A stretch of 64,000 nt of DNA, from positions 2,046,001-2,110,000 of the forward strand of contig NC_019779.1 of the NCBI RefSeq assembly GCF_000317635.1. The letters run 5' to 3'. The DNA is from Halothece sp. PCC 7418 (GTDB lineage Bacteria > Cyanobacteriota > Cyanobacteriia > Cyanobacteriales > Rubidibacteraceae). Shown in pieces: positions 27,339 through 48,051 of the stretch. Under the pieces are notes generated by a model. That model had not been told where the DNA came from. It searched no databases and was given only the letters and a program-made list of their open reading frames with translations. Each line of letters opens with the position of its first letter. Within the stretch, counting starts at the first letter, position 1. The translations under genes and the position numbers were made by a program.

Positions 27339-29459
27339 TTAAAGCTCTTCTTGATGACCATTCCCCACAATTCCCAAAATGGGCGTTCGGGAAAGGGTCA
27401 AATTTTCAACGGTTCTTTCCAGCAGCGATCGCTTTAAGCGACCAATACCAGTCACCAGTATCAGTCCATTGGTTCCCGTCGCCAGTAAATGAGCATCGGT
27501 AAAGCCCCTTAAAATCGTCGTATCGTAAATGACTAAATCAAACTCGCTTTGTAGCTGAATCATTAAACGCTGCATTTTTTCCGAGGCAATGAGTTTACTC
27601 GGATCTGGCGGAATCTGACCCGATCCGAGGAAGAATAAGTTCTCCTCTAGGGGACTAGGTTGGATAACTTGAGTCAGGTTCAATTCCTGTCGGTCAATCA
27701 GATCAGTTAAGCCTAAAGCAGTATTATCTTCCGAGGAGTGCTCAAACTGAGGACGACGCAGATCAGCATCAACCAATAAGACGCGCCGTCCCATAGCAGC
27801 AGCAGCTTTCGCCAAGTGGGTGGCAACGGTGGATTTCCCTTCTTGTGGCATTGCTGAGCTAATAACGATCGCGCGAACTGGAACATCTGGATTGAGCAAT
27901 CGGATATTGGTATAAATGGAACGGAAAGACTCAACGGCAACCGAAGTTTTCTGGAGAGTCGATTGACTCCAAAGCCCGCCCTTGTGGTGACCATTGGCTG
28001 CTCTCAGTTGTTTCCAAGTCGAATCCCGCATCTCTAGCATCCGATCAAAGGGAATATTGCCTAACAAGGGGAATTTCACCACTTCCTGAATCTCTCGGGT
28101 GGAGTGAACCAGATCGCGAAGGCGATCCACCATTAAAGCCGTTCCCACTCCTAGTAGTAGTCCTAACGCTGTCCCGAGGACTAAATTGCGTTGCACACTC
28201 GCCGAAACCGCAACAGGATCGCTAGGGGGGGTCAACACTTCCCAAGGAGTTTCACTTTGCGCCACATCAATCCCCAAGGCTTCGCGTTTAGTCAAAAATT
28301 GATTTAAATTATTGCTAGCAATTTCTAATTCCCGCTTGAGATCGGTATATTGACGGGTTGTTGCTGAAAGTTGTTTACTCCGTTCATTCAAACGAGCAAT
28401 GGTTTGAAAGAGAGCGCGATCGCGCGCTTCCAGGGACCGAATTTGACTCTCCACTTCCTTTTGCGCCCGCTTAGCTTCTTGTTGTAGTAAGGGGAGCAGT
28501 TGTTCTCTTTGTTGTTGCAGCGTCTGAATTTGAGGGCTGGTTTCCGTAAAAGTTGCTGATTCTTCAGCAATTTCCGTATCAATCTCTTGTAACTTGTCGA
28601 GAAGGGCTTCGTAGCGGGGCGTATTCAACGCTGAAGCCATCGCTTCCTCAATCGACTGCTCTGAGAGTTGTTGTTCGAGATCTTCAGCTAACAGTTGTGC
28701 TTCATTTAACTGCGCTTGCACTTGCAGCCGTTGCTGAACAAAAGTGCCAATTTGCTCAGACAGTTGTTCCGCTTCCATGGTGGGATCGATAAAGTTATTG
28801 TCTTCTCTTAACCACTGGAGACGAGCTTGAACTTGATCCACGCGCGATCGGAGTCTGGGCAATTGCTTTTCCACAAACACCAACCCCTTATTCAATTCCA
28901 ATTGGCGAACTTCCAAGCTAAAGTCCAAATAAGCATCCTTGACCGCCTCTAAAACATCCTGAACTTGCTGTCGGTTTGGGTTTTTATACTCAACTTGAAT
29001 AATCTGATTTTGCACATCAACACTGAGGTCGAGGTGTCTCGCAAGCCTCTTGTAATTTATATTCGGATATTTTTGCTGTAACCCTGCCACCAGTGGCTCT
29101 AAAACCCGAGGACTTCTCAAAATCTTCAGTTTCGCTGCATTGGGGACAACCGCGACAACATCTTCACGGTTACTTAATGACTCCGGTGTTGTCGATGAAA
29201 TCACTTGTGACTCTAAAGAGACTGGTTCGGCTAATAATTCAAACTGAGCCTTATAAATGGGTGTATCAGTTGCTGCTTTCATCCCGCCCAAAGCAGCACA
29301 AACCAGAGTCATTGTCACAATCACCCAAGACTGACGACGAAGTGCTCCTAAGACCTTAAAAACATTGAGCCCCCCTTCATCATCACCACCAATACCCTGA
29401 GTCTGATCGACGGGATAAGACAATTGATGAAAACGCTCGTTCACTGGATCAAGTGTCAT
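27339..29459 (-). CDS. Wzc-like polysaccharide co-polymerase with tyrosine autokinase domain
   Basis: The 706-residue protein joins a Wzz/GumC chain-length domain to a CpsD/BY-kinase domain. A first membrane span lies at about residues 43-62 (WVIVTMTLVCAALGGMKAA), long coiled coils at about 190-400, and a second span at about 425-445 (LVLGTALGLLLGVGTALMV). The kinase has Walker A SSAMPQEGKSTVATHL (about 540), Walker A' RRVLLVDADLRRPQ and Walker B FDLVIYDTT. The C-terminus ends GNGHQEEL without the usual tyrosine cluster. It controls polymer length and export in Wzy-type pathways. The start overlaps the upstream gene by ATGA. Confidence 0.88.
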   Translation of the reverse strand: MTLDPVNERFHQLSYPVDQTQGIGGDDEGGLNVFKVLGALRRQSWVIVTMTLVCAALGGMKAATDTPIYKAQFELLAEPVSLESQVISSTTPESLSNREDVVAVVPNAAKLKILRSPRVLEPLVAGLQQKYPNINYKRLARHLDLSVDVQNQIIQVEYKNPNRQQVQDVLEAVKDAYLDFSLEVRQLELNKGLVFVEKQLPRLRSRVDQVQARLQWLREDNNFIDPTMEAEQLSEQIGTFVQQRLQVQAQLNEAQLLAEDLEQQLSEQSIEEAMASALNTPRYEALLDKLQEIDTEIAEESATFTETSPQIQTLQQQREQLLPLLQQEAKRAQKEVESQIRSLEARDRALFQTIARLNERSKQLSATTRQYTDLKRELEIASNNLNQFLTKREALGIDVAQSETPWEVLTPPSDPVAVSASVQRNLVLGTALGLLLGVGTALMVDRLRDLVHSTREIQEVVKFPLLGNIPFDRMLEMRDSTWKQLRAANGHHKGGLWSQSTLQKTSVAVESFRSIYTNIRLLNPDVPVRAIVISSAMPQEGKSTVATHLAKAAAAMGRRVLLVDADLRRPQFEHSSEDNTALGLTDLIDRQELNLTQVIQPSPLEENLFFLGSGQIPPDPSKLIASEKMQRLMIQLQSEFDLVIYDTTILRGFTDAHLLATGTNGLILVTGIGRLKRSLLERTVENLTLSRTPILGIVGNGHQEEL

Positions 29460-36045: not shown

Positions 36046-38235
36046 TTGAATTACCAGGACTTCTTTCAAAGGCTAACTCATTATCAACCTTATCCTTGGC
36101 AAACTCAGTTTGCTCAGTGGGATGGTAACAAGATTGCAGTCGTTAACTTACCCACAGGGACAGGGAAAGAGTTTGGGGCAACGATTCCTTGGTTATATGG
36201 TCATTACAAAGGACATAATGTTCCCAACCGATTGATTTATTGTTTGCCCACCCGTTCTTTAGTAGATCAGGTTTATAACAATGTACAAGGCTTAGTGAAA
36301 AAATCCCAATTAGAGATTGATGTTTATTGCTTAAAAGGGGGGAAGATTGAACAAGGATATGAAGACCATCTTACCCAACCTGCGATTTTAATTGGCACGC
36401 AAGATCAGTTACTCTCTCGGGCTTTGAATCGAGGTTATACTGTCTCTTGGACACAGCGACCCAAACACGCAGCAGCAGTTAATAATGATTGTCGCTGGGT
36501 ACTCGATGAAACCCAGTTGATGGGAGTAGGCTATTCAACCGCGGTTAAGTTGCATCAACTGCGTCAAGAGTTGGGGGTATTTGGGAAAGCAGAACTGGTT
36601 TTAATGTCTGCGACCCAGAACTTAGAACCCTTGAAAGCCTCATCTTATCGCCTTTATCAGCTTAATCAGAAAGATTACGATCATCTCTTCCTTGGGGAAA
36701 AACTGAAGAAACCGAAACCTATCTCAAAAGCTGAGGTTTCCTCTCCTGAAGACATTGCAAAGTTAGCTCTTGAAAAACATCACTCAGGACAATTAACTTT
36801 AGTCGTTCTCAATACAGTGAACCGCGCTCGTGAGGTAGGAGAATGCTTGAAACAAGTGACTGACAGCGTTCCCATCCTGACCATTCATTCTCGCTTTTTA
36901 GGCTTTGATCGCGCTCAATTACAAGAGAAACTTTACAGCTTTCAAGGCATTGTCGTTGCCACTCAGGTTGTAGAAGCAGGGGTGGATTTAGATGCCAGTA
37001 CCTTAATCACAGAGTTATGTCCTTGGTCTTCTTTTGTGCAACGAGTGGGGCGCTGTGGACGAACGAATTTAGAACAGGCGAGTCAAGTATTCTGGCTAGA
37101 TTGGCAGGGGGATTGGAAAGCATTGCCGTATGAACAAAAAGACTGTGAGGAGACTAAAGAAAAGCTATTATCTCTTTCCGATGTGGGATTGCTTAGTTTG
37201 CTAGGAGTTGAATTACCCGATCGCAAGTTACCCAAGCGCAAGCTAGGAAAAGAGGAAATGGAGCAGTTTTTTACGACTCATCCTCAACTGCGTTCTACTA
37301 CCTATAGCACGGAAAAGTATGTCAGAGATGTTCACTCCTACACAGCGCGAGTCTTCTGGGCAGATGAACAACCCAAGACAATTCCGCATCAAACCTATTT
37401 ATGTCCCGTTCCTGTCAATGATTTAAACCAATTCTTACAGGAACAGCAAATTGAATTCTACGTTTGGGGGGAAGATAAATGGGAACAGAAAACTAAAGTT
37501 GAGATTGGAGATGTGGTTCATTTACCTTACACCACAGGCGGGTATAGCCACGAATTAGGCTGGACAGGAAACCCAGATGATTCTCCCATACCTTATTCCT
37601 TAACGACTCCTAAACTGTTTGACAATGAGCGTCCTACTCAATACTGGGTTTCTCTTAAAATCCATTCTGGGGATGCTGCTTTTTTTATGGAACAATATGT
37701 TCCGACATTACAGAGACTAGAGTTTAGTGAGGATGAAATTAACTTATTAATCCAATGCGCCCGTTGGCATGATTGGGGAAAAGCCCATGAGATTTGGCAA
37801 GACTTTGCTAATGCTGAAAGAGAATTAGTTGCTAAATCTCCTAAATATAAACACTTTACCACTTTAAACGGGTTTCGCCATGAATTGGCAAGCGCGATCG
37901 CTGCTGCTCAACAAAACGCCCCATTTTTAGCCCAATATTTAATCGCAGCCCATCACGGAAAAGTCAGAGAAACTCTAGTCAATGCTGATGGTTCTTGTGA
38001 TCCTAATGTTTTGAGAGGAGTTGAATTAGGTACGCAACTTCCTGAGGTTGAACTGGGAGAGGAGTATTTAGAAGCAGTCTCCTTAGACTATCCTGATCCG
38101 AGAAAATGGGAAGATCAAGTGTTTGAGGAATTATTAGCAGAATGGGGGGTTTTCAAACTGTTATATCTAGAAACCTTAATTCGTAACGCTGATGTTGCAG
38201 CGTCTAAATATCGGGAGGATCAAGTAAATGTATAG
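36046..38235 (+). CDS. cas3: CRISPR-associated helicase-nuclease Cas3, C-terminal HD (type I-G)
   Basis: The 729-residue protein has the helicase first: Walker A NLPTGTGKEFGATIPW near residue 36, DExH-type WVLDETQLMG near 151, VLMSATQNL near 187, and QRVGRCGR near 335. The HD nuclease domain follows, with CARWHDWGKAHEIW (HD near residue 575) and AAHHGKVRE. This helicase-then-HD order is typical of type I-G (I-U). The enzyme unwinds and shreds DNA chosen by the Csx17/Csb1/Csb2 complex. The only in-frame start downstream of a stop is TTG at 36046. It is separated from cas4 by a 571-bp regulatory region. Confidence 0.93.
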   Translation: MNYQDFFQRLTHYQPYPWQTQFAQWDGNKIAVVNLPTGTGKEFGATIPWLYGHYKGHNVPNRLIYCLPTRSLVDQVYNNVQGLVKKSQLEIDVYCLKGGKIEQGYEDHLTQPAILIGTQDQLLSRALNRGYTVSWTQRPKHAAAVNNDCRWVLDETQLMGVGYSTAVKLHQLRQELGVFGKAELVLMSATQNLEPLKASSYRLYQLNQKDYDHLFLGEKLKKPKPISKAEVSSPEDIAKLALEKHHSGQLTLVVLNTVNRAREVGECLKQVTDSVPILTIHSRFLGFDRAQLQEKLYSFQGIVVATQVVEAGVDLDASTLITELCPWSSFVQRVGRCGRTNLEQASQVFWLDWQGDWKALPYEQKDCEETKEKLLSLSDVGLLSLLGVELPDRKLPKRKLGKEEMEQFFTTHPQLRSTTYSTEKYVRDVHSYTARVFWADEQPKTIPHQTYLCPVPVNDLNQFLQEQQIEFYVWGEDKWEQKTKVEIGDVVHLPYTTGGYSHELGWTGNPDDSPIPYSLTTPKLFDNERPTQYWVSLKIHSGDAAFFMEQYVPTLQRLEFSEDEINLLIQCARWHDWGKAHEIWQDFANAERELVAKSPKYKHFTTLNGFRHELASAIAAAQQNAPFLAQYLIAAHHGKVRETLVNADGSCDPNVLRGVELGTQLPEVELGEEYLEAVSLDYPDPRKWEDQVFEELLAEWGVFKLLYLETLIRNADVAASKYREDQVNV

Positions 38236-38318
38236 CAATCCCAAATGATCCCCCCAACCCCCCAAGTTTTGGGGGCTTCCATGAGTCAACTTTTTACAAA
38301 CGATATAGAACTGCTATA
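38231..38318 (+). mobile_element. TATAGC-type MITE, copy a, overlapping the end of cas3
   Basis: It starts TATAGCAATCCCAAATGA and ends GAACTGCTATA. A strong hairpin CCCCCAA-GTT-TTGGGGG at 38259-38275 inside it probably ends cas3 transcription. The first five bases overlap the cas3 stop region, so the insertion has reached the very end of the gene. Copy b at 38575-38690 is the same element in the opposite direction. Confidence 0.75.
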
Positions 38319-38342
38319 TAAAGACTGTTACAATTTACTACG

Positions 38343-38451
38343 GTTTTAATCCTCATTCTTTTGAGGACTGAGTTGAAAGAAACAATTAGTGGTACATCAT
38401 TGATGAGATAATCATCACAAATCCTCTGAACTCAGAGGACTAAATTTCTAC
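38343..38451 (+). ncRNA. Degenerate two-repeat mini-CRISPR, CreR/CreA-like guide RNA
   Basis: Pseudo-repeat 1 (38343-38379) is exactly 37 bases, as in the main array, and agrees with the consensus at 26 positions. Pseudo-repeat 2 (38415-38451) keeps the stem and a perfect GACTAAATT block. In both, the stem changes from TCCCC/GGGGA to TCCTC/GAGGA, a compensatory pair change that keeps the hairpin. The 35-base pseudo-spacer (38380-38414) starts AAACAATTAGTGGTACATCA. Its first 11 bases match the minus strand at 38534-38524 perfectly, with 13-15 also matching. This fits a guide that tethers the I-G complex to the cas4 operon promoter. Expression is not shown. Confidence 0.75.
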
Positions 38452-38523
38452 TAAGGTAACGAAACCAAACAGCAGTAAGGGTTTTGTTGAGTTACGCTGT
38501 CATAAATTTTAAACTTTTATACT

Positions 38524-38566
38524 ACTAATTGTTTGACGTGCCATTTTGTATAAAGCGTGCTAATAT
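38524..38566 (+). promoter_or_regulatory. Putative promoter of the cas4-csx17-csb1-csb2 operon with pseudo-spacer target
   Basis: The target ACTAATTGTTT (38524-38534) overlaps TTGACG (38533-38538), a near-consensus -35 box. An extended -10 TGCTAATAT ends at 38566, though the spacing of 22 is long; TATAAA at 38549-38554 is an alternative with too short spacing. On the strand bearing the protospacer the three bases 5' of it read GTC. Binding of the interference complex here would cover the -35 region. Confidence 0.5.
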
Positions 38567-38574
38567 TAGATACA

Positions 38575-38690
38575 TATAGCAGTTCTCATTCTTATGTAAA
38601 AAGTCGATTAACCGTTCCCCCCTTACTAACCGGAGCTTTAGTGAGGAGGGCTAGGGGGGATTAACTTACAATTCATTTGGGATTGCTATA
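38575..38690 (-). mobile_element. TATAGC-type MITE, copy b, in the cas4 leader
   Basis: Read on the minus strand it begins TATAGCAATCCCAAATGAAT and ends GAGAACTGCTATA, so it is an inverted relative of copy a. The two share ACTTTTTACA-type sequence near one end and C-rich/G-rich inner arms. It starts about 9 bases after the presumed -10 box, so it probably lies in the 5' untranslated leader of cas4 mRNA. Confidence 0.75.
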
Positions 38691-38695
38691 TACAA

Positions 38696-38737
38696 AAAAG
38701 CCCCTTGATCACAGATGCGACCAGGGCTTCCTTGATG
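38696..38737 (+). terminator. Hairpin AAGCCC/GGGCTT before cas4
   Basis: AAAAAAGCCCC at 38694-38704 and GGGCTT at 38724-38729 can pair around a loop that also holds GCGACC, which in turn can pair with GGTCGC at 38760-38765. There is no clean U-run, so this may be an attenuator-like structure and not a full terminator. Its position, 80 bases before the cas4 start, would let it affect cas4 expression. Confidence 0.3.
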
Positions 38738-38806
38738 TAGCAGTCTTATTGTAGCATCTCGGTCGCGTTTGGCTCAAGGTTCAGATAATTACAAGGAGTC
38801 AAACTA

Positions 38807-39445
38807 ATGAATCAGTTCAATGATATTTTTTCTAATCTTGAAGCTGCTTCCAGAAAAGAGATCATTGTAGCCGCCTCTCGCATTGCTAAACATTTAATCG
38901 GAGAGTCTCAATGCTTACTTCAATATTACTTGCAAGCACATTATCAACTTGCAAATAATAAAAACTATATTTCCTACAAAATGAGGCATCAGTCTTTTTT
39001 AAAGCAGCGCAAGCAATTCTGGATGGCTGAAGGCTATAGTGTATCTTGTGAAAAGCAAAATCTGATGAATTTTTTGACTAAAAAGGGACCTAAATTTATT
39101 GGTACTCCCGATCTTTATGTCAAAGAAATCAACCATTTTGAAGAATTGAAAACGGGAAAACCAAAAGAGTACGACATTGTTCAACTCATGCTGTACATGG
39201 CGGCGGCTCCTTATATCTATGGTCTTTCGGAAATTCCTAGCGGTCAAGTCCGCTACAGTGATGGCTCTTTTAAAGATGTTTTACCAGAAGAGATTACTCA
39301 AGAATTCAAAGATCAAGTAACTCAATTAATTGGGGTATTGGTAGCAGATCAAATTCCAGAACCAGAACCTAGTCAACGTGATTGCCGTTTCTGCACTTTT
39401 AATAATTATTGTCCTGTTGCATATATCGACAATAATGTTGCCTAA
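38807..39445 (+). CDS. cas4: CRISPR-associated exonuclease Cas4
   Basis: The 212-residue protein has the RecB-like core: GTPDLYVKEINHFEELKTGK (residues about 97-117) with catalytic D, E and K, then QLMLYMAAAPYIYG with the motif IV Gln and Tyr. Its iron-sulfur cysteines are one near residue 33 (SQCLLQYYLQAHY) and three at the end (CRFCTFNNYC). Cas4 trims and selects prespacers by PAM with Cas1 and Cas2, but neither is present here. AAGGAG 9 bases before the ATG supports the start. It is the first gene of the effector operon. Confidence 0.92.
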   Translation: MNQFNDIFSNLEAASRKEIIVAASRIAKHLIGESQCLLQYYLQAHYQLANNKNYISYKMRHQSFLKQRKQFWMAEGYSVSCEKQNLMNFLTKKGPKFIGTPDLYVKEINHFEELKTGKPKEYDIVQLMLYMAAAPYIYGLSEIPSGQVRYSDGSFKDVLPEEITQEFKDQVTQLIGVLVADQIPEPEPSQRDCRFCTFNNYCPVAYIDNNVA

Positions 39446-39660: not shown

Positions 39661-41748
39661 GTGATTAGTCAAACGACTGTTAACCAATTTATTCCCATTC
39701 CTACAACTTCCCCAACAACCTTATTAGGCTATCTCAAAGCATTGGGCTTAATGGCGATTACCAATGCCAAGGGATATTGGGAACAAGAACAGTTTTATCT
39801 TAATGTCGAATCTCTCAGGGAAGTTGTCGAGACATTTGTTTCCGATTATCAACCGAAACCGATCGCGAATCCTTGGAACAAAAAATCTGGCTTTTTATCG
39901 GGAAATCAATTAAAACCTTTTCTAGAAACGGAAACAGAACGATATCAGCGCATCAGAGAAACTTATCAAGAGATTATTGAAGTTCTCTCAGAAATTGATT
40001 TAAAGGGAAAAGGGAGTAAAGAACTGAAACCACTTCTTTTTCCAAAGTTAGAAGAAAGTATCGAGGATGATTCTTTCATAGACTGGCTGAGTTCGGTGGG
40101 AGTTGTAACGACTGATAAGGGGAAAGAAAGGGTTTACCTCAATGATTTACTGGGAACTGGCGGGAATGTCAGCACCAGCGATTTAGCCTTTAATTATTTG
40201 GAATGCTGTCGCCAACTATGGGATATCAAAACAGGAGAACCAACGGCAGATTGTCAGACTTTTGCTGAAGCTGCGATCGCTGCAACCCCTCATCCCAAAT
40301 CATTAATCAAAAAAGGAATCCTCTGTCACCTCTCGCCTCGCGCCGACTTTTTTGGCGAACTGGACACCAGAACGGGAACCGATGATTATCCAGCTAATGG
40401 CATTAGTACCCAACTAGCTAATCCTGTTGACTATATTTTAGCGATCGAGGGCTTACTGCAATTTTCAGGAACGGTTAAAAACTTAAAAGAAACCGATGGC
40501 GAGTCTCCAGAAACTACTTATGCCCTCTATCCGTTATTGCTAGAAATTAATGCGGGGTCTGCCGAAACCAGCGATCGCACTGAGAACAGTAAACATGAGT
40601 GTTGGCTACCCTTATGGTCAGAACCAATGGAGTTAAGAAAATATCGGCGTTATGTTAGCAATCATTTGAATTATCGCTTAAAAAATCAAATCCGAGACAC
40701 TTTAGACTTACTTGCACAATTATCTCAATCCAGTCAGTATCTAGAGTTCACTCGTTATTCGCGCTTTGGTTTTTGGCCCCGAAAAGGACAAGGCAGTTAC
40801 GCCATTCATATTGGGATTGAAAGCCCTGAAGGGAATGATTTAGGGGCGGAATTACGTCGTTGGCGAAAATCGGTGCGTCCTCGTCCCGACCAGACCAATG
40901 CGACCTATACTCTGCTGATGTCTTTGGAACAGCGATTAACCGCTTTGCAACGAGGTCAGGGGTCTTATCAAGAATTATTGATTTTACTGGGAAGTGTAGA
41001 AAAGCATCTGAGTAAACTTAAGTCTCGATATCTGCTTCCTGTTCCCAATCTCTCAGAAAATTGGGTAAAAAAGGCTTATGAAGAAAACCGTTGTTCTGAG
41101 TTTCGTTTAGCAGCTGCGCTTGCTTCCACTGGGCTGCGATCAAACATTTCTAGTTATGGACATAGCAAAAAAAAGGAAACCTCTTTCTGGAGGGGGAATA
41201 CTGATGTAGTGCCTACTTATTCTTTATCTGCGCTGACTTATGCCCTTTTAAGGAAATGGTCGATCAGGTTATCGCAAGACTCACATAATCATTCTAAGCA
41301 TCCTAGTCAATATTCCGACACTCTAGCTTATGCCAATTTTGAGGATATTGAGAAGTTAATGCTAGGAACTTTAAACGAAGCCCTCATTTTAGACCTTGCT
41401 TGCGGATTATCTTTATGTAGCACCCCAACTAAACTCTGGGAACAAGACAAACCGAAATTTTTACCCTTTAGCTATCGTTATGCTGCTTATGCTCACTGGC
41501 GCAAAGACTATTCCTTGTCCATGAAAGAAATCTATGGACTTTATCAGGGTTCAACTGTTCCTCTGGTTCGTCGATTACGCGCCCAAGGATTGACAAGTAG
41601 ATTAACTAAAGAAAATGACAAAAAACAGAAGAAAAAGGTGAAGATCACATTGCCAGACTTGATCGAAAATGGTGCTGAAATAATTATCGCGCTAGCTTTC
41701 CCCATTAATCCATATCAATTAGGAGTAAAAACAAATGACTTTAATTAA
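39661..41748 (+). CDS. csx17: Csx17, large subunit (Cas8) of the type I-G complex
   Basis: The 695-residue protein starts with GTG, with AAAGGAAC upstream. Its size, its place directly before csb1 and csb2, and features such as TSPTTLLGYLKALGLMAIT at the N-terminus and LAAALASTGLRSNISSYGH (about residues 482-500) fit Csx17, the I-G large subunit. It is expected to contact the PAM and recruit Cas3. It overlaps csb1 by 14 bases. No nuclease motif is seen. Confidence 0.85.
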   Translation: MISQTTVNQFIPIPTTSPTTLLGYLKALGLMAITNAKGYWEQEQFYLNVESLREVVETFVSDYQPKPIANPWNKKSGFLSGNQLKPFLETETERYQRIRETYQEIIEVLSEIDLKGKGSKELKPLLFPKLEESIEDDSFIDWLSSVGVVTTDKGKERVYLNDLLGTGGNVSTSDLAFNYLECCRQLWDIKTGEPTADCQTFAEAAIAATPHPKSLIKKGILCHLSPRADFFGELDTRTGTDDYPANGISTQLANPVDYILAIEGLLQFSGTVKNLKETDGESPETTYALYPLLLEINAGSAETSDRTENSKHECWLPLWSEPMELRKYRRYVSNHLNYRLKNQIRDTLDLLAQLSQSSQYLEFTRYSRFGFWPRKGQGSYAIHIGIESPEGNDLGAELRRWRKSVRPRPDQTNATYTLLMSLEQRLTALQRGQGSYQELLILLGSVEKHLSKLKSRYLLPVPNLSENWVKKAYEENRCSEFRLAAALASTGLRSNISSYGHSKKKETSFWRGNTDVVPTYSLSALTYALLRKWSIRLSQDSHNHSKHPSQYSDTLAYANFEDIEKLMLGTLNEALILDLACGLSLCSTPTKLWEQDKPKFLPFSYRYAAYAHWRKDYSLSMKEIYGLYQGSTVPLVRRLRAQGLTSRLTKENDKKQKKKVKITLPDLIENGAEIIIALAFPINPYQLGVKTNDFN

Positions 41749-42763
41749 TATCACCGCTCACTTAGAGAATTTGCTGGTTACCGCTAAACCTCCCATGTTT
41801 CTCGATGTGGGCGTTTCTCAAGCCTATCTGCCGTGGGAAAAACGCTTAGATGTACTGCTCAATACCCCACAAGCCACTGCCAATCAGTTAGAAGCCCTGA
41901 TTTGGGATGAAGTGAATCAGGATATTATCCCAGAATTACAAGGACTTCCCTATATTGAAATTAGGAATACACGAGCCAACAATCAATTCCTTGCTTCTAC
42001 CCTTACTCTTCCGCACCGCATTGGCACCGCTTATCTGTCTCGTCATAAAGATGCGATGTTAGATGGAGACAGGTTTCGAGACGTTTTGAAACGGCGAGTG
42101 AAAGAACAAGGCATTTACCGTGCTGTCTTTGAATTAGACCCCATTTCCATTGTTTTAGGGTGCTTTCTTTCTCACATCCAAGGCAATATGCGGATTCCTC
42201 GCATGGTAACGGGTCAATTTGTCGCTCAAGGTGCGGTTGCGATGCCTAATGGTGGGGCGAGTCATGATCCCATTTCTGCTGCTGGGGATAGCGTGGTTAC
42301 GAAAGGCTATTTTGTCAAAGAAGCAAAGGAGAAGGGGAAAACTAAATTCAAAGATATTAACAAAGCCTCGGAAGTCGGATTGGGAAATGTTCCTTATGTT
42401 CGAGAATCATATCAAGCAGAGGACTATCTCGGGAAATTTGTCATTGATACTCGCTTAGTAGATGCTGCACCCAATCTTCCTGATACTGCTAAGGAGTTAA
42501 TTAGCCTTCTCTCTCAATATCTCGTTGCTAAATTTCTCTCAGAGCCGATTATGCTGCGATCAGAGTGCTATTTCCAAGTTCAGGAAATTAAGGGAACTGA
42601 TCCAGATTTACCGAGCAAAGTAGAAACCTTACAACAAGAATTGCAGCAGAAAATCCAGCAATGCCAAGAAGAAGGTTTATTTAATGGGGTGACTACGGTT
42701 GACATTCCCATTGAACTGGATGAAGCGGGTGAGGAAGAAGAGGAAACGGAAAGCGCATCTTAG
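41735..42763 (+). CDS. csb1: Csb1, Cas7 backbone subunit of the type I-G complex
   Basis: The 342-residue protein matches the GSU0053/Csb1 family: RNTRANNQFLASTLTLPHRI (about 75-94), FELDPISIVLGCFLSHIQGN (about 132-151) and RIPRMVTGQFVAQGAVAMPN. These are the RAMP-type blocks of this Cas7. Several copies line up along the crRNA spacer. TAGGAG stands 11 bases before the ATG, and the gene starts within the end of csx17. A long acidic tail (EAGEEEEETESA) is variable in the family. Confidence 0.92.
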   Translation: MTLINITAHLENLLVTAKPPMFLDVGVSQAYLPWEKRLDVLLNTPQATANQLEALIWDEVNQDIIPELQGLPYIEIRNTRANNQFLASTLTLPHRIGTAYLSRHKDAMLDGDRFRDVLKRRVKEQGIYRAVFELDPISIVLGCFLSHIQGNMRIPRMVTGQFVAQGAVAMPNGGASHDPISAAGDSVVTKGYFVKEAKEKGKTKFKDINKASEVGLGNVPYVRESYQAEDYLGKFVIDTRLVDAAPNLPDTAKELISLLSQYLVAKFLSEPIMLRSECYFQVQEIKGTDPDLPSKVETLQQELQQKIQQCQEEGLFNGVTTVDIPIELDEAGEEEEETESAS

Positions 42764-42766
42764 ATT

Positions 42767-44203
42767 ATGATCATCGCCATTCACCTATTATTAAATCAAT
42801 ATCAGGCAAATGCTTGGCATCATGCCCATTGTGAAGGCTTAATTGATTGGCCCCCTGCCCCTTGGCGGATTCTCAGGGCGATTGTCGCTGGTTCTTATAA
42901 CGTCCATTTGCCGAAGAAACATCAAGCGACTCTAAAAGGCTTACTGCATAAAATGGCGCAAGTGGAACCAGAATACTATCTCCCCCAAGCCACTTATATC
43001 CAGCATCGATCACCGCGACCACAGATGAAATCGGGGAAACCGCCTGAAATTAAACCAGGGAAAACCCTTTATGCTGCGGGGTTACTCCTCGATGAGGAAG
43101 ACTCAACGCTTTTTATTCGATATCCCTTTGAACTCAGTGAAACGGAAGATTTAGTCTTACGCTTAATTTTCAATGGTCTGACTTATTTAGGGCGCAAAGA
43201 AGCTGCTGCCCAGTGGGAAATTGTGGAAGAAATGCCTGAAAGTAATGCCATTCCCAACCCAGAAGGAACAAAAATTGTGGCGATTCCCGATTCTAATTTA
43301 GATGCAGAACAACTTTGGGAAACGCTTAACTCATCGGCTGCGGATGTCTTTGCTAAAAATAAGCAAGCGGTATTTCCAGGAGTGGGACAAACTGCCTACC
43401 AATTAAAAGATCCTAATTCAGAACAGTTGTCAAGGAACAAGGATGAAGCGTCTAATGCTGCTGTCCAGATTGTGACCTTGAGCGCGATCGCGCCACACCC
43501 GATTCCCCTCAAATACGCCCACGAAATCTGTTACAACTTACACCGTTCTCTCGTTAAACGCTGTCCTAGCCCGATTTTTACAGGCCAGGAAATGGGAGAA
43601 CCTCGCCGAAATCATAGCCATACATTTATTCAACCGATTCCTGACTCTAAACAGCGTTATATCAAAAGACTACAGTTAATTGCTACTGAAGGATATTCCT
43701 CTGATGCCCTCGCCAGCATTTCTGCTATTTTATTTGTCAAAGCAGGAGAACAATGGGTTAACTTACAACTCAGTGATTTCTCTAAAAACCTTGGCGAGTC
43801 TCATCAACAATGGAAAACCATTACGCCGATGTTTCTGACTCGCTTCCCGAAAACCTTGCGGGGAAAACCTCGTTATTTATCGGGAACAGACTATCAAAAA
43901 GACGGGGCTGAACATCAAGCCTTGAAATATTTACTCTTTCTCGATCATTTAGGCTTATCAGTGAAACCCACGTTTCAAGCAACCTCCGAAGGATTGGGGA
44001 TGTATTTAGATGGGGAATTAGTTGTAGAAGCTCAATGTCAGCCTTGGGACAGATTTTGGCAATGGCAGTCTGCTCATTCTCATGGTAAGAAAGTGGGGCG
44101 AGTGGGATACAATGTGAAACTAACTTTTTCTCAAGCGGTTACATCTCCCATTGGTCTGGGTTATGCCTGTCATTATGGGTTAGGAACGTTGCTCCCGATT
44201 TAG
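42767..44203 (+). CDS. csb2: Csb2, Cas5-Cas6 fusion of the type I-G complex
   Basis: The 478-residue protein begins IAIHLLLNQYQANAWHHAHC and WPPAPWRILRAIVAGSYN, the N-terminal Cas5-like part of GSU0054/Csb2. It ends SPIGLGYACHYGLGTLLPI, the glycine-rich loop of Cas6-type RNA endonucleases. It should cut the array RNA at the base of the repeat hairpin and stay on the 5' handle. It starts 3 bases after the csb1 stop with no clear ribosome site, so translation is probably coupled. The leader of the array follows directly. Confidence 0.92.
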   Translation: MIIAIHLLLNQYQANAWHHAHCEGLIDWPPAPWRILRAIVAGSYNVHLPKKHQATLKGLLHKMAQVEPEYYLPQATYIQHRSPRPQMKSGKPPEIKPGKTLYAAGLLLDEEDSTLFIRYPFELSETEDLVLRLIFNGLTYLGRKEAAAQWEIVEEMPESNAIPNPEGTKIVAIPDSNLDAEQLWETLNSSAADVFAKNKQAVFPGVGQTAYQLKDPNSEQLSRNKDEASNAAVQIVTLSAIAPHPIPLKYAHEICYNLHRSLVKRCPSPIFTGQEMGEPRRNHSHTFIQPIPDSKQRYIKRLQLIATEGYSSDALASISAILFVKAGEQWVNLQLSDFSKNLGESHQQWKTITPMFLTRFPKTLRGKPRYLSGTDYQKDGAEHQALKYLLFLDHLGLSVKPTFQATSEGLGMYLDGELVVEAQCQPWDRFWQWQSAHSHGKKVGRVGYNVKLTFSQAVTSPIGLGYACHYGLGTLLPI

Positions 44204-44435: not shown

Positions 44436-47400
44436 GTTTAAATCCCCGATTTTCAGGGGACTAAATTGAAACTTTTGATTCAGGCCCCGAGCCAAATCCC
44501 GATCCCGTTTAAATCCCCGATTTTCAGGGGACTAAATTGAAACTCTAACTAAAAATAATCATAACACATTCTTTTAAAAGTTTAAATCCCCGATTTTCAG
44601 GGGACTAAATTGAAACAAGCAATTTTATATTGCTCAGGAGTGCTAGGCAAGTTTAAATCCCCGATTTTCAGGGGACTAAATTGAAACAGGGAAATATACC
44701 AGATGGTAGCAGTAAGGTAGCAGTTTAAATCCCCGATTTTCAGGGGACTAAATTGAAACCTAAGATGACCGCAGTGGCGCAATAACAACTTCTGTTTAAA
44801 TCCCCGATTTTCAGGGGACTAAATTGAAACCTTTTCAGTCTTGCGATCCTCGTAGTCATCAAATGTTTAAATCCCCGATTTTCAGGGGACTAAATTGAAA
44901 CATTAAAAGAGGGGTTAAAAGTTGTTGGATTCAATGTTTAAATCCCCGATTTTCAGGGGACTAAATTGAAACACGGACTGAATATTACAAAACCATCGGG
45001 GCAAAGGTTTAAATCCCCGATTTTCAGGGGACTAAATTGAAACTTTTTCTGTGGTCAGAATAGCCTAAGTATTCTGGTTTAAATCCCCGATTTTCAGGGG
45101 ACTAAATTGAAACGAAAGAAGAGCGCAACGACAACAGCAGTGACACCGCAACGGTTTAAATCCCCGATTTTCAGGGGACTAAATTGAAACTATTTTGTGG
45201 TTTCAGGATGAATCCTACCTAAAATCGTTTAAATCCCCGATTTTCAGGGGACTAAATTGAAACTTGCTCAAGTTTTGGCATCATTGTGTAGTCAAATACT
45301 GTTTAAATCCCCGATTTTCAGGGGACTAAATTGAAACAGGGAATTTTGTAATATCTTCTATGCCAAGATTTTCGTTGATAGTTTAAATCCCCGATTTTCA
45401 GGGGACTAAATTGAAACTAACATCTGCAATGGTTTCTTCTAGGAGTTCCCACTGTTTAAATCCCCGATTTTCAGGGGACTAAATTGAAACCCATCGCTTT
45501 GACTTTCATTCTACTAATGAAAAGGGAGGTTTAAATCCCCGATTTTCAGGGGACTAAATTGAAACCTGGTCGCAGTAATGAATATCCTCATTGGCTCTTA
45601 GAGTTTAAATCCCCGATTTTCAGGGGACTAAATTGAAACTTATTAATAGGTAAATAAGGTGGATCGAGATATAGTTTAAATCCCCGATTTTCAGGGGACT
45701 AAATTGAAACAAAAATAAGCCAGAACAACCGCTCCATGACACAGTTCGTTTAAATCCCCGATTTTCAGGGGACTAAATTGAAACTTTTCATAAACGAAAA
45801 CCAAAGTACAAGAAATGCTGTTTAAATCCCCGATTTTCAGGGGACTAAATTGAAACGAGAAAAGCTGCGGATGGATTTTAGGCGGAGCTTGCCCAAGTTT
45901 AAATCCCCGATTTTCAGGGGACTAAATTGAAACCCGATATAAGATTTACTGGCTTTAGTTGCTCCTGTTCTGTTTAAATCCCCGATTTTCAGGGGACTAA
46001 ATTGAAACATCGACTCTCTGACTAGCGTTAATCTTCGCAGCACCTTCAGTTTAAATCCCCGATTTTCAGGGGACTAAATTGAAACTCCTTCCTAAAATGA
46101 GATATCTGTTAATCCTTTGTGTTTAAATCCCCGATTTTCAGGGGACTAAATTGAAACTGAGTATTCGGGCAACGCTCGAATATCATCCAGTGTTTAAATC
46201 CCCGATTTTCAGGGGACTAAATTGAAACTTTGAATAAAGTGTAAACTCTGTAAACTTAGGCGGTTTAAATCCCCGATTTTCAGGGGACTAAATTGAAACT
46301 TTTTGGTTGTGACAATTCTGAAGGGGGGTCAAGTGTTTAAATCCCCGATTTTCAGGGGACTAAATTGAAACGTTGTTTAGCGATATCTTCGCCTGATTGC
46401 TCCCAAGTTTAAATCCCCGATTTTCAGGGGACTAAATTGAAACGTCAACGCTTTACCAACTCGTTTGGCAGTTGACCAAAGTTTAAATCCCCGATTTTCA
46501 GGGGACTAAATTGAAACCCGCTAGTTGTCCCCTCGGCTATGGTTGCGGTGTTTAAATCCCCGATTTTCAGGGGACTAAATTGAAACGGTAAGTGTAATTG
46601 GGTCTTTATCATCATCTTCGTTTAAATCCCCGATTTTCAGGGGACTAAATTGAAACCTTATCATGAAGAAGAACATCTACACTAATTTAATGTGTTTAAA
46701 TCCCCGATTTTCAGGGGACTAAATTGAAACTGGCATTTTCAATTTTCTGCTCTAGTGAATCCAGATCTGGTTTAAATCCCCGATTTTCAGGGGACTAAAT
46801 TGAAACCATTTCCAGCATTGGCTCTCCCCCGATGGTAATTGCGTTTAAATCCCCGATTTTCAGGGGACTAAATTGAAACGCTGGGCTGACATTCCCCCGG
46901 AAAACAACCCAGAGTTTAAATCCCCGATTTTCAGGGGACTAAATTGAAACTATTAATTGCTTACGGTAGTCCTGATTACGGACTAAGCACAGTTTAAATC
47001 CCCGATTTTCAGGGGACTAAATTGAAACTTCTACAATTAGATAATTAGCAAGTTGCTACCAGTGACTACCGTTTAAATCCCCGATTTTCAGGGGACTAAA
47101 TTGAAACTTACAGCAACTCGTAGAGGCGTACTGTGAAGGAGATAGTTTAAATCCCCGATTTTCAGGGGACTAAATTGAAACTTCCCCACCCTGAATATAA
47201 GCAGAATAAAAATACGGGTTTAAATCCCCGATTTTCAGGGGACTAAATTGAAACATTAATCCCAGATACAGACGGCATTTTAACCTCCCAGTTTAAATCC
47301 CCGATTTTCAGGGGACTAAATTGAAACAAAACTACTCGCTGAGGAGTACCGTCGCTTAACAGTTTAAATCCCCGATTTTCAGGGGACTAAATTGAAACAG

Positions 47401-48051
47401 AGTATGGGGACCAGAAATAGCAAATACTTCAATGGTTTAAATCCCCGATTTTCAGGGGACTAAATTGAAACGTTAGGGTCGAAGGGATGCTCCCTAAACT
47501 CAAAAGCAGTTTAAATCCCCGATTTTCAGGGGACTAAATTGAAATAACGCTACTCAGCAACAAGTCCTTACTCTTATGAGTTTAAATCCCCGATTTTCAG
47601 GGGACTAAATTGAAATTATTACCCCAGTTATTGCGCTCTAAAGGAACAGGTGTTTAAATCCCCGATTTTCAGGGGACTAAATTGAAATCCTTTTTTTTGC
47701 CTCAGCTTCTAGTCGATCTTCCAGTTTAAATCCCCGATTTTCAGGGGACTAAATTGAAATCAAAAGTTAAATTATTGTTGTTGTGCGGGCTTTAAACGTT
47801 TAAATCCCCGATTTTCAGGGGACTAAATTGAAACACAGTGTTTACAGGTGGGCTTGTTGATGCCGATGTTTAAATCCCCGATTTTCAGGGGACTAAATTG
47901 AAACATAATTGTGATTACTATCCTTTTTATATGGCTATTGTTTAAATCCCCGATTTTCAGGGGACTACGTTGAAACTCAATTTAGTCCTACAAATAATGA
48001 GGATTAAAACAAGTGTTTAAATCCCCGATCCTCAGGGGACTAAATTAAAAC
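44436..48051 (+). CRISPR. Type I-G CRISPR array, 50 repeats and 49 spacers
   Basis: The 37-base repeat begins GTTTAAATCCCCGATTTTCA and ends GGGGACTAAATTGAAAC. A stem TCCCC/GGGGA with an 8-base loop is clear. I counted 50 repeat starts, from 44436 to 48015; spacers are mostly 34-40 bases (one of 43 at 45338-45380). Repeats 1-42 appear identical. Repeats 43-46 (47509-47760) end in T in place of C, 47-48 are canonical, 49 (47940-47976) has ACG for AAA-type change, and 50 (48015-48051) has several changes. Transcription is left to right from the leader. Spacer 49 is special (see findings). Confidence 0.97.

Follow-up and report, generated by a model that had tools for sequence, protein, structure and literature searches.

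Two guides of type II systems, tracr-L (used with Cas9) and scaRNA, are known to redirect the effector to repress a chromosomal promoter, which in the case of tracr-L is its own, and stand-alone two-repeat mini-arrays whose spacers partly match cas promoters are reportedly described by Shmakov et al. 2023. The CreR cases named in the accessible text of one review belong to types I-B, I-E and V-A (PMC13131331), and repression by CreR is relieved when crRNAs or anti-CRISPRs draw the effector away, as reviewed in PMC12737573. Examples of CreTA modules and their CreA guides come from type I-B (PMC9458426, PMC8501985) and, judging from the part of the source that was available, from type I-F in Acinetobacter (PMC10097628). 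For haloarchaeal CreA, guide nucleotides 1-5 and 7-11 are critical, and nucleotides 6 and 12 are dispensable (PMC8501985). Type I-G was called the least well understood type I subtype in 2022; structural data show that its effector flips out every sixth base, its Csb2 cuts 4 nt 3' of the repeat hairpin and leaves an 8-nt handle, and the characterised systems use a TTN PAM (PMC9638904).

The window analysed here is a 64-kb stretch of the 4.18-Mb single-contig genome of the salt-loving cyanobacterium Halothece sp. PCC 7418. Profile searches identified all of cas3g, csx17, csb1 and csb2, establishing a type I-G CRISPR-Cas system (Table 1), and the closest relative of its csx17 belongs to a MAG of the same genus, Halothece. 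The space between cas3g and the cas4-csx17-csb1-csb2 operon holds a mini-CRISPR that consists of two degenerate copies (psiR1 and psiR2) of the array repeat (GTTTAAATCCCCGATTTTCAGGGGACTAAATTGAAAC), 72 nt apart, which is the array's own period, and a pseudo-spacer between them. We interpret this element as a crRNA-like regulatory gene of the CreR kind that serves the adjacent I-G system by repressing cas4-csx17-csb1-csb2, a reading to which we assign a probability of about 85% in the absence of data on RNA, promoter or repression.

Table 1. Positions, strands and supporting evidence for the features of the type I-G locus in the window.
Feature	Position	Strand	Basis
cas3g (type I-G helicase/nuclease)	36046..38235	+	TIGR02621, 539.5 bits vs. 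cut-off 400
MITE-like element, opposite in orientation to that at 38574	38248..38321		genome-wide copies
psiR1, degenerate first repeat	38343..38379	+	26/37 to array repeat, no gaps; top non-array match in window
Predicted mature CreR RNA, 72 nt	38372..38443	+	Csb2 processing rule (PMC9638904) applied to sequence; fold
Pseudo-spacer (guide), 35 nt, AAACAATTAGTGGTACATCATTGATGAGATAATCA	38380..38414	+	sequence
psiR2, degenerate second repeat	38415..38451	+	23/37, gapless; joint second match outside array; fold z -4.0
Partial protospacer	38500..38534	-	guide positions 1-11, 13-15 and 17 match
-10-like TATACT, candidate start signal of cas4-csx17-csb1-csb2, inside protospacer	38518..38523	+	inferred from sequence only
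PAM, 5'-GTC on minus strand	38535..38537	-	sequence; GTC in 10/11 I-G pairs, GTT in one
MITE, ~118 bp, between target and cas4	38574..38691		many genome copies
cas4-like PD-(D/E)XK nuclease	38807..39445	+	PF12705 at its cut-off; TIGR00372 30.7 bits, below cut-off 65
csx17 / cas8g large subunit	39661..41748	+	TIGR04113, 187 bits vs. cut-off 150
csb1 / cas7g	41735..42763	+	PF09617, TIGR02570
csb2 (fused Cas5-Cas6)	42767..44203	+	TIGR02165, 102.8 bits vs. cut-off 45
CRISPR array	44436..48051	+	50 repeats of 37 nt, mean spacer 36 nt

The preliminary description of this DNA had placed both pseudo-repeats and reported the ungapped match of psiR1 at 26 of 37 positions; these values, and all its other coordinates, were reproduced. 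As a control for the repeat matches, twenty Markov-shuffled 64-kb sequences yielded best matches of 21-24 positions. The hairpin (TCCTCA..TGAGGA) and the 8-nt handle GTTGAAAG are both kept in psiR1, and psiR2 retains a 7-bp hairpin with the handle gone (ATTTCTAC in place of ATTGAAAC). Given the cutting rule of Csb2, a psiR1 handle and a psiR2 hairpin are what crRNA maturation needs; the predicted 72-nt RNA would be composed of the 8-nt handle, the 35-nt guide and 29 nt of psiR2, and its computed fold has a stable hairpin at the 3' end. The window has the 5' handle upstream of the guide and the processing hairpin downstream of it that are features of CreR. A search of Rfam returned nothing relevant to this element. 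Elsewhere in the window, a repeat-like string at 28167 was dismissed as a chance occurrence (only its 3' end is common with the repeat, and there is no second unit).

The most serious competing explanation is that the element is left over from an old, decaying CRISPR array, matches nearby DNA by chance and has no present function, which we consider very unlikely. In favour of a remnant are the low identity of the pseudo-repeats to the array repeat (only 62-70%), the invasion of the region by mobile elements and a sister locus without a mini-CRISPR. Nor does the state of the hairpins alone exclude it. The paired TCCTC/GAGGA change does occur in both units, as first described; the claim that it reveals a selected RNA structure is weak when taken alone, because neutral decay keeps 5/5 pairs with P ~0.06 and 0.03 for the two units, and because a change common to both may be one event, and we do not accept it as proof of selection. 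Against a remnant, the decay follows function, with the handle of psiR1 and the hairpin of psiR2 preserved.

The match between guide and target weighs further against a remnant. The guide starts with AAACAATTAGTGGTACA, and its first 15 nt match 38534-38520 on the minus strand with a single exception, position 12; position 6 agrees. Within the 64 kb, the 11-mer AAACAATTAGT occurs only in the pseudo-spacer and at 38534-38524 on the minus strand. This perfect 11-base seed had been noted before, and the match proved to be better than claimed, continuing through positions 13-15 and 17 beside a GTC flank. Among 5000 shuffled versions of the intergenic region, 11 contained the 11-mer (11/5000), 3 contained a match with no more than one mismatch apart from positions 6 and 12 (3/5000), and none contained such a match together with GTC (0/5000).

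We further compared the window to other cyanobacterial type I-G loci, of which 28 were inspected upstream of cas3 and one more (L107) was added later, for a total of 29. An equivalent mini-CRISPR with a guide and target upstream of a cas operon was observed in 10 of the 29, and about two thirds of the I-G loci scanned contain no such element. Obvious counterparts are present in five relatives, G105 (L025), G072 (L027), G246 (L051), G252 (L052) and G222 (L053), where the guide follows a degenerate repeat whose end is TTGAAA(G/A/C) and precedes a second repeat with a perfect or near-perfect hairpin. Their guide targets are within ~50 nt of the cas3 start, and the PAM and target follow a -10-like box of the cas3 leader (TATACT, TATATT or TAGACT) by 16-18 nt, which would place a bound complex at the transcription start or just beyond it. 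In one such pair, the guide ATGATCAAAAGCCTTAA differs from its target GTC-ATGATAAAAAGACTTAA only at positions 6 and 12. Where the target has changed, the guide is altered to match (GTAAT for ATGAT in L053, GAAAG for AAAAG in L051). Co-variation of the seed with the cas promoter region in related I-G loci had been put forward as a test in the preliminary description, and this test is met in ten other loci.

For a scan that made no use of the PAM or the second repeat, we searched 29 loci including the window (345.6 kb, arrays masked) for a TTGAA handle, two bases, and 17 nt that match a site no more than 700 nt away, allowing a single mismatch at most besides those at positions 6 and 12. The scan returned 10 matches, of which 8 are flanked by 5'-GTC. 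The 29 other orderings of the letters of TTGAA, used as decoys, gave an average of 1.3 matches and 2 GTC flanks in total (0.07 per scan), and when the tolerated positions were moved to 5/11, 4/10, 7/13, 8/14 and other registers, only L035 remained with GTC. The eight GTC matches are those of the window, L025, L051, L052, L053, L031, L035 and L057; the last three form a second I-G group with a different repeat family and the handle CCATTGAAGC. Further pairs were found in L027 and L029 (GTC, two mismatches each) and in L028 (GTT, one mismatch). L107 was negative, as were the remaining loci when rescanned with looser handles, where GTC was not above decoy PAMs. Neither the mini-CRISPR nor the target is present in L024 and L026, which are closely related to L025. 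The exact guide/target pair of the window was not present in any other locus examined and is unlike the pairs of the relatives; it was therefore re-targeted or arose separately.

Three other stretches have features of their own. In the sister Halothece MAG (L023, 9300-14108), csx17-csb1-csb2 is intact, only a remnant of cas3 remains, and neither cas4 nor a mini-CRISPR is found upstream; most of cas3, cas4 and the mini-CRISPR have been lost there. At 8318-9569 in L057, two genes lie between the guide's target and cas3; one encodes a 280-aa protein with a BRO-N domain, the other a 103-aa protein whose family is unknown. From ~6017 in L067, one spacer of the G072 array recurs in that array region with 3 mismatches in 42.

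Across the 11 pairs, including that of the window, position 6 is mismatched in 10 and position 12 likewise in 10, and positions 1, 2, 4, 5, 7, 11 and 13-15 are mismatched in none (0/11), with agreement declining beyond position 17. The flanking trinucleotide is GTC in 10/11 and GTT in 1/11. The handle of psiR1 is retained in 11/11, as is a psiR2 hairpin of at least 6 bp, built from base pairs that differ among loci; only L029 still has the handle of psiR2. No relationship is seen among the guides when those of the window, the five relatives and the individual second-group loci are compared (cross-matches at most 8/15), which corresponds to at least 7 independent guide/target pairs with each guide fitting its own target. 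Since every sixth base is flipped out by the effector, we attribute the 6/12 mismatch pattern to the footprint of a type I effector. Pairing extends over ~15-17 nt, in line with CreA guides. The recurrence of the architecture, the PAM and the 6/12 mismatch pattern in 10 other loci weighs against a remnant with a chance match.

The mini-CRISPR and its target are bracketed by two related MITE copies in opposite orientation, members of a family with dozens of copies in the genome, and a third repeated stretch lies near the mini-CRISPR at 38454-38498. At the inner end of the left MITE, TTTACA-16-TATATA (38293-38320), read by eye, could drive the guide RNA. In the target region of the window, upstream of cas4, we recognised no standard promoter. 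The TTGACG motif, proposed earlier as a promoter element, did not hold up: it is not a convincing -35 box, there being no -10 box at 16-18 nt, and its GAC is more plausibly the PAM than part of a -35 element. That the target is the operon promoter is accordingly an inference, the operon start not being mapped, and as far as sequence can tell this is the one CreR feature for which proof is missing, with every other testable feature met. On the minus strand at 38697-38777, a promoter-like TTGAGC-18-TACAAT is followed by a G+C stem and a T run, signals that suggest a possible short antisense RNA just upstream of cas4.

The spacing between target and cas4 bears on a second explanation, namely that the guide is an antitoxin of the CreTA/CrePA kind: its target would drive a small toxin RNA or protein encoded between 38538 and cas4, and the cell would come to depend on the effector. 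The cas4 start is ~270 nt from the target, CreTA modules share the guide design (PMC9458426), and L057 has its two accessory genes, one of them BRO-N, between target and cas3. However, the distance in the window arises from the MITE, which makes up 118 nt of the gap, the open reading frames between target and cas4 are all at most 35 aa (which does not strictly rule out a toxin RNA in the window), and the targets of the five relatives abut cas3 with no room for a toxin. The preliminary description had left CreR-like and CreA-like roles of a I-G guide side by side; the CreR half is supported by the seed, the 6/12 pattern, the GTC/GTT flank and the handle in ten loci, whereas a toxin-guarding role of the CreA type is not supported, because the five relatives' targets are so close to the cas3 start, and we leave it only a slim chance. 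A third explanation, that the pseudo-spacer and target pair as RNA (antisense or a long-range leader hairpin) without the CRISPR effector, is given almost no chance: the two sites in the window form inverted repeats at a distance of 133 nt, so that a single transcript could pair with itself, but guide and target have the same orientation in nine relatives, which makes RNA pairing impossible there, and neither the 6/12 mismatch period nor a PAM has meaning for RNA-RNA pairing.

The PAM is inferred from the guide/target pairs alone as GTC/GTT, without confirmation from array spacers. Searches of phages and plasmids and spacer scans of viral contigs revealed no protospacers of array spacers, and the PAM is thus without an independent check. 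This gap and the TTN PAM of published I-G systems count against the CreR reading, as do the ~270 nt with a MITE between target and cas4, the lack of a recognised standard promoter at the target, the absence of the window's exact pair from close relatives and the many I-G loci without such an element. In viral contigs we found no psiR1-like repeat, and two pattern matches to the relatives' guide, considered as phage-borne mimics, have no repeat-like flanks and were judged to be chance. The leader-distal (oldest) spacer of the window's array (47977-48014) is the reverse complement of the repeat-like sequence GTTTTAATCCTCATTATTTGTAGGACTAAATTGA, which has its first 15 nt in common with psiR1 and of which no other copy was found in the genome; for an intact repeat with TTGAAAC at its end, the flank would read GTT, consistent with the inferred PAM.

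Under the CreR reading, we infer that transcription would begin just upstream of psiR1 and that Csb2 would cut both pseudo-repeats, releasing a 72-nt RNA (handle GUUGAAAG, 35-nt guide, hairpin) that would be loaded into the Csx17-Csb1-Csb2 complex. The first 15 nt of the guide would then pair with 38534-38520 beside the 5'-GTC PAM, with position 12 flipped out. Such pairing would be too short to license cutting by Cas3, and the bound complex would instead block transcription of cas4-csx17-csb1-csb2. The inferred logic is negative feedback, in which free effector would repress its own operon, and crRNAs or anti-CRISPRs that occupy the effector would lift the repression. Very probably, then, this type I-G system uses a guide RNA of its own to throttle its own expression.

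A broader picture can be drawn, which we regard as improbable in its entirety: that cyanobacterial I-G systems are commonly self-regulated by CreR, with guides re-targeted many times and a GTC/GTT PAM that departs from the TTN of known I-G systems, that in Halothece the regulation covers only the effector operon and not cas3, and that the oldest spacer is a memory acquired from a guide gene resembling a CRISPR, either its own CreR or a mobile element that carries repeats. Should the CreR reading itself hold, type I-G would join the systems with RNA-guided self-repression. From the guide/target pairs a PAM (GTC/GTT) is also predicted for a cyanobacterial I-G group, for which, to our knowledge, none is known. 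The pairs supply ready-made natural repression guides, and eleven pairs with different sequences and one geometry form a clean set for experiments.

Among known systems, tracr-L and scaRNA differ in belonging to type II, with a single-protein effector and a tracrRNA-based guide. A CreR-type guide in type I-G seems to be undescribed: we found none in the literature, in a search that did not cover the broad survey of Shmakov et al. 2023, and priority is not certain. The mini-CRISPR shares with CreTA/CreA the psiR1-psiS-psiR2 layout, a seed of positions 1-5 and 7-11, an inferred PAM dependence and repeat degeneration, and differs from it in that the window has no evident toxin gene or toxin RNA and that the target adjoins cas genes (PMC9458426, PMC8501985). 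CreR (Liu et al. 2023, Cell Host Microbe; via PMC13131331, PMC12737573) is, like the element of the window, a degenerate mini-CRISPR beside cas genes that has no toxin; its guide is in part complementary to the promoter region of cas genes, which is an inference in our case, and the effector represses its own expression, which is a prediction in our case. The Halothece locus differs from the CreR cases named in the review (PMC13131331) in its subtype (I-G), its fused Csb2, its GTC/GTT flank, and a target that lies upstream of cas4-csx17 rather than cas3.
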